Source: Pseudoalteromonas sp. FUC4 (GTDB taxonomy: Bacteria > Pseudomonadota > Gammaproteobacteria > Enterobacterales > Alteromonadaceae). From it: a DNA stretch of 64,000 nucleotides. Shown one piece after another: positions 2,002 through 4,144 of the stretch (positions are counted from its first letter, which is position 1; each line of letters opens with the position of its first letter). Below the pieces are notes generated by a model. The model ran no database searches. It saw only the letters and a list, made by a program, of their open reading frames with translations, and was not told the DNA's origin. The stretch covers positions 135,987-199,986 of the forward strand of contig NZ_SEUI01000004.1 in NCBI RefSeq assembly GCF_008370255.1, in the 5' to 3' direction. The position numbers and the translations under genes were made by a program.

Positions 2002-2984
2002 GTTTACTTTTTAAAGGTCGTCAAAATAGTAACGATAAGCAACAGAAATCGATATTAGCGGGTGGTTATTTTTTCATAATTAATATTTTTCGCCAAGGTG
2101 TGCATAGTTTAGGTGAAATGTGGCGTACACCACTTGCTTCAATGATGACCATTGCAGTACTTGGATTGAGCCTAACTTTGCCAGCTACACTTTATTTAGT
2201 TGTTAAAAATGTACAGCAGGTAAGCAGTGGTTTTGAAGAAGCGAGTGAAATATCGTTATTCGTAAAAGAAAGTATGAACGAGCAAGAAACGCAAACCTTA
2301 GTAAAGCGTTTAGCACTTTACCCAGAAGTGGAGAGTGTTGAGTTTATTTCAAAGCAAAAAGCACTCACCGAGTTTAAAGATGTTTCCGGTTTTGGGCAGG
2401 CTTTAGAGTATTTAGATAAAAATCCATTACCTGATGTAGTGCTTGTTACGCCAACAAAGCGTAATAGGCAGCCAAACGCCGCTAAGGCGCTTCTAACTAA
2501 ACTTGAGAGTGAACGTGAAGTTGACTTTGGAAAGCTTGATATAGCATGGTTAGAGCGTTTAAATGCACTGCTTGATTTACTCAAAGAAAGTGTAATAACT
2601 ATCGCACTATTATTACTTACCTCAGTGACTCTCATTATTGGCAACACTATTCGCTTGTCTATTATGGACAAAAAAGAAGAAATTCAAGTAATGAAACTTG
2701 TAGGGGCTACCAATACATTTATACATGCCCCATTTTTGTGGACTGGTATATGGTACGGCGTAATAGGCGGTTTATTTGCTTTTATATGTGTTGGATTAAT
2801 GATGTGGTGGCTTTCGAGTGCTGTGAGTAGCGTTGCAGGCGTATATCAAACAAGCTTTTCACTTATTGGCTTATCGCTTAGCGAGCTTGGCTTTTTAGTA
2901 TTACTTGCCACTAGCTTAGGCTTTATTGGCTCGTATCTATCTGTAAATCGGTATATTAAAGAAATAGAACCCGACAAAGTATAA
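1998..2984 (+). CDS. ftsX: FtsX, cell-division ABC permease
   Basis: FtsX is the membrane partner of FtsE. The 328-residue protein has a cytoplasmic N-terminal tail, a first membrane segment near residues 44-68, a large periplasmic loop (about 70-190) that in the family binds EnvC, and three further membrane segments in the C-terminal half, as expected for an FtsX fold. The ATG overlaps the end of ftsE. Nothing odd is seen in the sequence. Confidence 0.96.
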   Translation: MSLLFKGRQNSNDKQQKSILAGGYFFIINIFRQGVHSLGEMWRTPLASMMTIAVLGLSLTLPATLYLVVKNVQQVSSGFEEASEISLFVKESMNEQETQTLVKRLALYPEVESVEFISKQKALTEFKDVSGFGQALEYLDKNPLPDVVLVTPTKRNRQPNAAKALLTKLESEREVDFGKLDIAWLERLNALLDLLKESVITIALLLLTSVTLIIGNTIRLSIMDKKEEIQVMKLVGATNTFIHAPFLWTGIWYGVIGGLFAFICVGLMMWWLSSAVSSVAGVYQTSFSLIGLSLSELGFLVLLATSLGFIGSYLSVNRYIKEIEPDKV

Positions 2985-2995
2985 ATGAACCAATT

Positions 2996-3024
2996 CAACT
3001 TGATACACGTAGAGTATCAAGTTG
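2996..3024 (+). terminator. Inverted repeat after ftsX
   Basis: An 11-bp perfect stem, CAACTTGATAC / GTATCAAGTTG, with a 7-base loop lies just past the ftsX stop. There is no T-run directly after it, so it may be a weak terminator or an mRNA 3' end stabiliser. Confidence 0.45.
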
Positions 3025-3186
3025 GATACGCTTTCGGTTTATTAAAACTGTCATATCTATATACTATCCTCCCTTAAAGTAATGAGTTGTAAATAGTGTG
3101 TTGCGACGGAGCGAATTGCTTGCAAACCCTTAATTCATCACTTATTCAGTCGCTTGTAGTAGACTAAATACATACCAAAAAACTAC

Positions 3187-3216
3187 TTGATTTATACTTT
3201 AAAAAAGTTTTAAATT
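3187..3216 (+). promoter_or_regulatory. Probable sigma-70 promoter of rpoH
   Basis: TTGATT (3187-3192) and TAAATT (3211-3216) are separated by 18 bases. Transcription would start near 3223, at the left arm of the CIRCE element. This is read from the sequence and is untested. Confidence 0.5.
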
Positions 3217-3220
3217 GGGG

Positions 3221-3247
3221 TTAGCACTCTTAAGTAAAGAGTGCTAA
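3221..3247 (+). promoter_or_regulatory. CIRCE element (HrcA operator) upstream of rpoH
   Basis: TTAGCACTC-N9-GAGTGCTAA is an exact match to the CIRCE consensus bound by the heat-shock repressor HrcA. It lies 33 bases upstream of the rpoH start codon, over the predicted transcription start. CIRCE normally controls groESL or dnaK; here the only downstream gene is the sigma-32 gene. Confidence 0.92.
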
Positions 3248-3280
3248 GATGGTTTCAAATGTTTATCACCGAGGTGAAAA

Positions 3281-4144
3281 ATGAGTAAAGATTTATACGC
3301 AATGGCACTTACAGTCGGACAACAAAGCGCAAGCATGGATGGTTACCTTCAAGCGGTAAGCACTATTCCTATGCTTAAAGTGGAGCAAGAGCAAGAGCTT
3401 GCTAAAAAGCTTCAGGAAGAAGGCGATCTTAGTGCTGCCAAGCAACTCATTATGTCGCATTTACGCTTTGTAGCACATATTGCTAAAGGCTACTCGGGAT
3501 ACGGCTTGCCACAAGCTGACCTTATTCAAGAAGGTAATATAGGCCTGATGAAAGCGGTTAAACGTTTTGACCCTTCAGTGGGTGTACGTTTGGTATCGTT
3601 TGCAGTGCATTGGATTAAAGCCGAAATTCACGAGTTTGTGCTTAAAAACTGGCGCATAGTTAAAGTTGCAACCACTAAAGCGCAACGTAAATTGTTTTTT
3701 AATCTTCGTAAAAACAAAAAGCGTTTAGGTTGGTTTAATCAAGCTGAGGTTAGCACTGTTGCTAGTGAACTAGGTGTGAGTGAGAAAGAAGTACGTGAAA
3801 TGGAATCGCGAATGAGCGGCCAAGACATGGGCTTTGATCTAACGGGCGACGATAACGACGACGCACCAACAAGCACGTACTCTCCAGTACAGTACCTAAC
3901 AGATGGCGCAGCTGATTTAGCTGACGACGTTGAACAAGAACAGTGGAAAGAGCAAGCGCACACTCGTTTATTTAGCGCACTTAAAACACTAGACGAACGT
4001 TCACAAGATATTGTTAGCGCACGTTGGTTGTCTGATGATAAAGCGACTCTTCAAGAGCTTGCACAAAAGTACAGTGTATCTGCTGAACGTGTTCGCCAGC
4101 TAGAAAAAACAGCAATGAAAAAGCTGCAAAGCGCTATGAGCTAA
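3281..4144 (+). CDS. rpoH: RpoH, heat-shock sigma factor sigma-32
   Basis: RpoH directs RNA polymerase to heat-shock promoters. The 287-residue protein has region 2 (the [24 protein letters not shown] area, residues 60-83, is typical), the RpoH-specific box QRKLFFNLR (135-143) that separates it from RpoD and RpoS, and a C-terminal region 4 helix-turn-helix ending in [10 protein letters not shown]. The ATG follows a GAGGTG ribosome-binding site. It is preceded by a perfect CIRCE operator and followed by a strong terminator, so it is probably a single-gene unit. Confidence 0.97.

Follow-up and report, generated by a model that had tools for sequence, protein, structure and literature searches.

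The gene for the heat-shock sigma factor sigma-32 (rpoH) in Pseudoalteromonas sp. FUC4 carries a perfect CIRCE element at its predicted transcription start. With a probability of roughly 75%, we propose that this element is a working operator through which a diverged HrcA represses rpoH, that sigma-32 in turn drives hrcA and grpE, and that rpoH is the sole CIRCE target of the repressor. The stretch of DNA analysed here, hereafter the window, is 64,000 nucleotides long, and the features on which the argument turns are as follows.

3187..3192, + strand: -35 element TTGATT of the predicted sigma-70-like rpoH promoter, from column conservation across 31 genus loci
3210..3215, + strand: -10 element TTAAAT, 17 nt after the -35 element, from column conservation across 31 genus loci; predicted start at about 3221-3223
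3221..3247, + strand: CIRCE operator TTAGCACTC-N9-GAGTGCTAA, predicted HrcA binding site, a perfect match
3271..3277, + strand: ribosome-binding site GAGGTGA, read from the sequence
3281..4144, + strand: rpoH, sigma-32, 287 aa, an open reading frame recognised by TIGR02392 and by similarity to 8hkc_E

In full, the operator reads TTAGCACTC-TTAAGTAAA-GAGTGCTAA, with no mismatch in either arm and a nine-nucleotide spacer (window 3221-3247), and it lies 33 nt from the rpoH ATG. The 287-aa open reading frame passes the NCBI RpoH equivalog model TIGR02392 (418.1 bits, cut-off 323.1) and matches the solved RpoH chain 8hkc_E across residues 17-286 (398 bits); the central observation of a preliminary description of this DNA, a perfect CIRCE in front of rpoH, thus holds for both operator and gene. 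Within the 64 kb, this is the only match with up to three mismatches (shuffled mean 0.05, 100 shuffles), and a scan of the whole genome (4.33 Mb, 16 contigs) found no second CIRCE with fewer than three mismatches, so that the further sites envisaged at groESL and dnaK are not borne out. Exactly three mismatches occur at ten further places in the genome. Nine of these are copies of one sequence, TGGGCACTCGTACAGATTGAGTTCTAA, all located about 3 kb or less from contig ends (e.g., L002-L007, L009, and L010) and probably belonging to a large repeat such as an rRNA operon; the tenth (L008) has no GroES-like open reading frame among the three of at least 80 aa listed nearby.

The transcription start of rpoH is placed by conservation. 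Across the 31 genus loci, the columns -34 to -29 from CIRCE read TTG(A/C)TT and the columns -11 to -6 read TTA(A/T)AT, ending 5 nt before the operator. These conserved promoter columns suggest that transcription begins near the first bases of CIRCE. A generic sigma-70 scan, which demands an A at position 2 of the -10 element, found no promoter in 2900-3400. The earlier proposal that the palindrome lies over the start of rpoH transcription fits the genus-conserved promoter at 3187-3215; this predicted promoter stands upstream of CIRCE, and the predicted start falls at the element rather than far downstream of it.

A palindrome that opens the predicted transcript could also act as RNA, forming a leader hairpin that governs mRNA stability or serves as a thermometer. 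As RNA, the 27 nt do fold, as had been anticipated (-13.9 kcal/mol, z -6.6), but any perfect palindrome of this kind folds, and the z value therefore does not discriminate. In the minimum-energy fold of the 120-nt leader, the ribosome-binding site is base-paired to the opening codons, making a separate thermometer conceivable; that fold is weak, however (z -1.64), and the CIRCE hairpin does not extend to the ribosome-binding site. Among the 119 CIRCE-rpoH loci listed for relatives, a set that lies outside the genus sites, the spacer pairs showed no RNA covariation (36 to 49 pairs or fewer, equal to shuffles), and G at position 3 of the left arm stands opposite T in 23 cases and opposite C in one. 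No Rfam family matches the leader, the sole match in 2950-3700 lying on the other strand inside rpoH at 16.5 bits (gathering threshold 55.6), and the element tracks hrcA across the order. Given the lack of covariation and a ribosome-binding site outside the hairpin, we rejected a function as RNA hairpin and consider it very unlikely; folding itself stands from the preliminary description, whereas an RNA role gains no support from the relatives. That the palindrome should terminate transcription of an upstream operon is a reading to which we give practically no weight. It is a strong inverted repeat located about 240 bp past the end of the preceding open reading frame, but no T-run follows it, a terminator scan called none there, and a terminator would need neither exact CIRCE arms nor the N9 spacer.

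An operator calls for its repressor, and the genome indeed encodes one HrcA homologue, whose presence the preliminary description had left to be checked. It lies outside the window (locus L011, 1186-2148) between two genes that we take to be nadK and grpE; with both used as queries in the loci of other groups, they jointly flank hrcA in 18 of the 22 loci searched. The C-terminal domain scores above the Pfam cut-off (PF01628, 36.2 bits, cut-off 22.2), and the DNA-binding domain PF03444 reaches 16.9 bits over residues 10-80 (E 0.005; cut-off 21). The best model, the NCBIfam hrcA equivalog TIGR00331, gives 117.1 bits where the cut-off is 197.2. We therefore class the protein as a diverged orthologue rather than a standard HrcA equivalog, and a score below that cut-off likely means that the gene is missed in annotation.

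Divergence is unevenly distributed along the protein. Compared with 52 HrcAs of other groups, mean identity is 50% over the DNA-binding residues 23-80 and falls to 23% over residues 1-22, 18% over 81-160, 14% over 161-240, and 15% over 241-321. The motifs SATVRN and SPHTSAGR are unchanged in all 17 aligned genus HrcAs. The alignments drew on 80 extracted HrcAs (36 used in alignment A1 and 17 in A2), the 4 of 84 hrcA loci without an extracted open reading frame (L056, L264, L274, and L276) being left out. When the predicted structure (mean pLDDT 82.5) was compared with the PDB, the top match was 1stz, an HrcA homologue from Thermotoga (E 4.2e-18, TM 0.52), and the DNA-binding part alone scores 53.7 bits against the same entry. 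From these comparisons, we read the protein as a vertical orthologue that appears to have kept its DNA-binding half while the remainder changed strongly.

Site and repressor are both nearly universal in the genus. CIRCE with at most two mismatches occurs in 97 of 99 Pseudoalteromonas genomes and hrcA, searched with a profile of 17 genus members, in 99 of 99, counts that are not independent because genus members are related. A joined pattern, in which a CIRCE with one position left free in each arm is followed after 323-353 bases by the FAVHW codons plus the next two bases, was found in 94 of the 99 genomes and never in a backward control. Two genomes, G061 and G065, carry CIRCE before rpoH at 354 bases, one past the range of the pattern; G002 has a CIRCE whose position in the genome is not listed; and G015 and G066 yielded neither CIRCE (at most two mismatches) nor an RpoH match (E 1e-80) in their assemblies, so rpoH may be missing from these drafts. 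At every one of the 31 genus loci read, 32-34 nt separate the end of CIRCE from the rpoH start.

This conservation bears on the idea that the site is a relic, or is kept for another DNA-binding protein, with the diverged HrcA no longer binding. HrcA does fall below two curated cut-offs (PF03444 and TIGR00331), and in G028 an hrcA split into two pieces (L350) coincides with one mismatch in the right arm of the operator (rpoH locus L019). A mismatch at the same position occurs in G016, where hrcA is in one piece, and in-frame stops lie within the hrcA match of G044, G068, and G072. A relic, however, would not stay perfect as this site does, amid a variable leader, in most of the genomes listed for the genus. 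All 17 aligned proteins share the same recognition residues, and in the order, leaders of genomes without HrcA lack the site, bar one exception with two mismatches. We thus regard a relic, or a site serving another protein, as highly improbable.

Operator and repressor were also compared across the order. HrcA scored above the Pfam cut-off in 27 of 247 genomes (a 28th match, in G245, falls under it), and all 27 carry CIRCE with zero to two mismatches before rpoH (19 + 8 loci read). Some site with at most two mismatches occurs in 41 of the 247; in the 14 of these without HrcA over the cut-off, the sites, where listed, have two mismatches only, and among those fetched, only that of G313 stands at rpoH. 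Scoring of 20 rpoH leaders separated the two groups: the 7 with HrcA had a best site with zero or one mismatch, while 12 of the 13 HrcA-less leaders were at seven to nine, the level of shuffled sequence. The exception is again G313, with its site at two mismatches plus a second at six; G271, from the same genus, possesses HrcA as well as two better sites, from which we infer, in this one case, a likely decay of the operator after loss of hrcA.

At the level of the class, the joined CIRCE-rpoH pattern was present in 52 of 274 genomes (45 of 222 genera; backward control 0), a lower bound since the pattern is strict, with exact core arms and a bounded gap. HrcA was found in 199 of the 274 genomes, namely in 47 of the 52 that bear the pattern versus 152 of the 222 others (Fisher p 0.0009). 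The five with a site and no HrcA match are G437, whose assembly is 99% complete, and G348, G447, G520, and G571, which are 62-88% complete. Among 14 named control genomes, 7 had an HrcA match, with no E. coli among the matches listed. With HrcA in 199 and CIRCE at rpoH in 52 of 274 class genomes, FUC4 is no oddity, and the preliminary description's view of HrcA and CIRCE as a matter for other phyla must be revised; its main hypothesis fared better, the joint occurrence of site and repressor across the order making HrcA control of rpoH the best reading of these sequences.

If HrcA represses rpoH, what controls hrcA? In 28 genus loci, no CIRCE stands before hrcA, the best candidates having six to nine mismatches. 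Instead, a sigma-32-type promoter scores at least 11 of 14 in 26 of the 28 loci and 12 or 13 in 23 of them, levels at which 1.7% of shuffles reach 11 and 0.02% reach 12; before grpE, all six loci checked have a promoter of the same type with a score of 12 or 13. An operator at rpoH only, together with a sigma-32-type promoter before hrcA, predicts a feedback in which sigma-32 makes HrcA and HrcA shuts rpoH.

We propose the following sequence of events. In unstressed cells, HrcA bound at 3221-3247 would cover the start of the sigma-70-type promoter and hold rpoH low. Once HrcA is inactive, rpoH would be transcribed and sigma-32 would turn on the chaperone genes. Among its products would be HrcA and GrpE, made from the conserved sigma-32-type promoters, so that HrcA would return and rpoH be closed again, a negative-feedback loop in which rpoH would be the only CIRCE target of HrcA. 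What the sequences themselves display is the site, its conservation, its joint occurrence with hrcA, the retained DNA-binding residues, and the promoter motifs; binding, repression, the sigma factor used, and the feedback are inferred. In other bacteria, unfolded protein draws GroEL off HrcA and so releases repression; we assume by analogy that such a GroEL-release step, the sensing route put forward in the preliminary description, could apply in Pseudoalteromonas.

It may also be that HrcA represses rpoH through CIRCE with hrcA lying outside sigma-32 control, repression then being steady or responding to a signal other than GroEL. The hrcA promoter is called by consensus matching and genus conservation, and over residues 81-321, the would-be sensing part of HrcA, identity to other HrcAs is only 14-18%. 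Promoter scores of at least 11 of 14 in 26 of 28 hrcA loci, and of 12 or 13 in all six grpE loci, speak against an hrcA gene free of sigma-32, and we consider this variant unlikely. Our preferred reading remains the feedback loop.

The loci of relatives suggest where this arrangement came from. A scan of named genomes, which is not a random sample and whose gap range omits most Pseudoalteromonas, yielded at least 119 CIRCE-rpoH loci, including ones from Methylomonas, Methylocaldum, Halieaceae, Dyella, Rhodanobacter, Thiodiazotropha, Thiothrix, Rheinheimera, Alishewanella, Kangiella, Nitrosomonas, Thiobacillus, Ferrovum, and many MAGs, some of whose titles look misnamed. The downstream open reading frames at all 119 listed loci match the RpoH of the window at 51-81% identity, seven of them being shorter than 280 aa. 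Four listed loci with less than 100 nt upstream were dropped, leaving 115 for a promoter test.

Of these 115 loci (from L125-L243), 60 match the heptamer GGAACTT at 6-7 of 7 positions in the range -18 to -13 relative to CIRCE, and 79 match it at 5 or more; six controls with shifted windows gave 1-5 and 6-15 loci, respectively. With a 16-nt spacer, the -10 element would consist of the last two bases of the left CIRCE arm and the first three of the CIRCE spacer, and at these three spacer positions T (57%), A (51%), and A (76%) are the commonest bases. The resulting GGAACTT-N16-TCTAA fits what we take to be the sigma-E consensus. Judged by motif, about half or more of the listed loci thus appear to have an HrcA operator and a sigma-E-type promoter with bases in common.

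No such element recurs at a common position in the 31 rpoH leaders of Pseudoalteromonas, where sigma-E scores range from 7 to 11 of 12. The best of these, at L024, lies roughly 44 nt upstream of CIRCE. Near that position, 43 nt before the rpoH CIRCE, G061 and G065 (L375 and L374), which form a divergent Pseudoalteromonas clade, have GGAACTT-N16-TCAAA, and the L024 element is the weaker match. By their sequence, these elements are perhaps remains of an ancestral sigma-E-type promoter.

Relatives also differ in having further operators. A second CIRCE adjoins an open reading frame that is GroES-like by its motif in 25 of the 27 class genomes read, of 51, with none seen in G459 and G595; G431 has one further CIRCE at hrcA. 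Eight second sites were read in the order, seven of them at GroES-like open reading frames (the exception is in G137). A doubled operator characterizes genus g7, whose closest named locus is Kangiella: all 16 of its genomes have two CIRCEs at a distance of 31 bp, leaving a 4-nt gap, and the pair was read in front of rpoH in 12 + 4 genomes (L075, L076, L078, and L081-L089; L334-L337), and a third CIRCE was read in four, each time at a GroES-like open reading frame. In the g7 groES leaders L345-L347, the CIRCE spacer holds CCCC (or GGGG on the other strand), which suggests that the operator may overlap a sigma-32-type -10 element there.

Taken together, we suggest that Pseudoalteromonas inherited its wiring from an arrangement of broader occurrence in gamma- and betaproteobacteria, in which CIRCE overlaps the -10 element of a sigma-E-type promoter at rpoH and another CIRCE controls groESL. 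A bolder proposal, for which we would offer slightly less than even odds, is that HrcA widely acts in gamma- and betaproteobacteria to silence an rpoH promoter driven by sigma-E, the operator being fused to the -10 element so that envelope stress can raise rpoH only when HrcA is off, and that in Pseudoalteromonas it became an rpoH-only repressor made by sigma-32, its rebuilt sensor half maybe no longer reading GroEL.

Most teaching on the heat-shock control of proteobacteria draws on E. coli, where rpoH is governed by mRNA structure, FtsH proteolysis, chaperone titration, and a sigma-E promoter. To our knowledge, E. coli has neither HrcA nor CIRCE. Its RpoH protein is closely similar to that of the window (residues 17-286), and sigma-E-like promoters are likewise found at many CIRCE-bearing rpoH genes of the relatives; what differs is that rpoH in these lineages is, as its sequence context suggests, probably held off by a repressor missing from the standard E. 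coli picture. If this is true, HrcA directly controls the sigma-32 gene in many gamma- and betaproteobacteria, and in many of these its operator is joined to a sigma-E-type promoter at shared bases, while Pseudoalteromonas, with one operator and one repressor, offers a simple testable case of feedback on a master sigma factor.

The classical HrcA/CIRCE regulon, as in Bacillus and many other bacteria, comprises groESL and/or the hrcA-grpE-dnaK operon. It shares with the system described here the operator sequence, its position at the promoter, the repressor family, and the location of hrcA beside grpE. In Pseudoalteromonas sp. FUC4, however, groESL, dnaK, and hrcA lack a site with fewer than three mismatches, and hrcA has a sigma-32-type promoter in place of CIRCE.

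In the literature searched, as far as the sources were available to us, no CIRCE at rpoH is described for gamma- or betaproteobacteria and Geobacter is the only precedent found; the claim of novelty is provisional, since RegPrecise and the survey in which Permina and Gelfand (2003) treat beta-, gamma-, and epsilonproteobacteria, either of which may list the site, lay outside that search. According to the parts of the report by Rodionov and colleagues (2004, PMC545781) available to us, Geobacter sulfurreducens, alone among the deltaproteobacteria named there as having this site, has a predicted CIRCE in front of rpoH, and its CIRCE targets are rpoH, groESL, and hrcA-grpE-dnaK-dnaJ. An overlap with a sigma-E promoter is not described in those parts. 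On the same partial account, the two cases agree in operator consensus, in its place before rpoH, and in being proteobacteria with hrcA; they differ in that rpoH is one of three targets in Geobacter, whereas in Pseudoalteromonas it appears to be the sole target, conserved across the genus.
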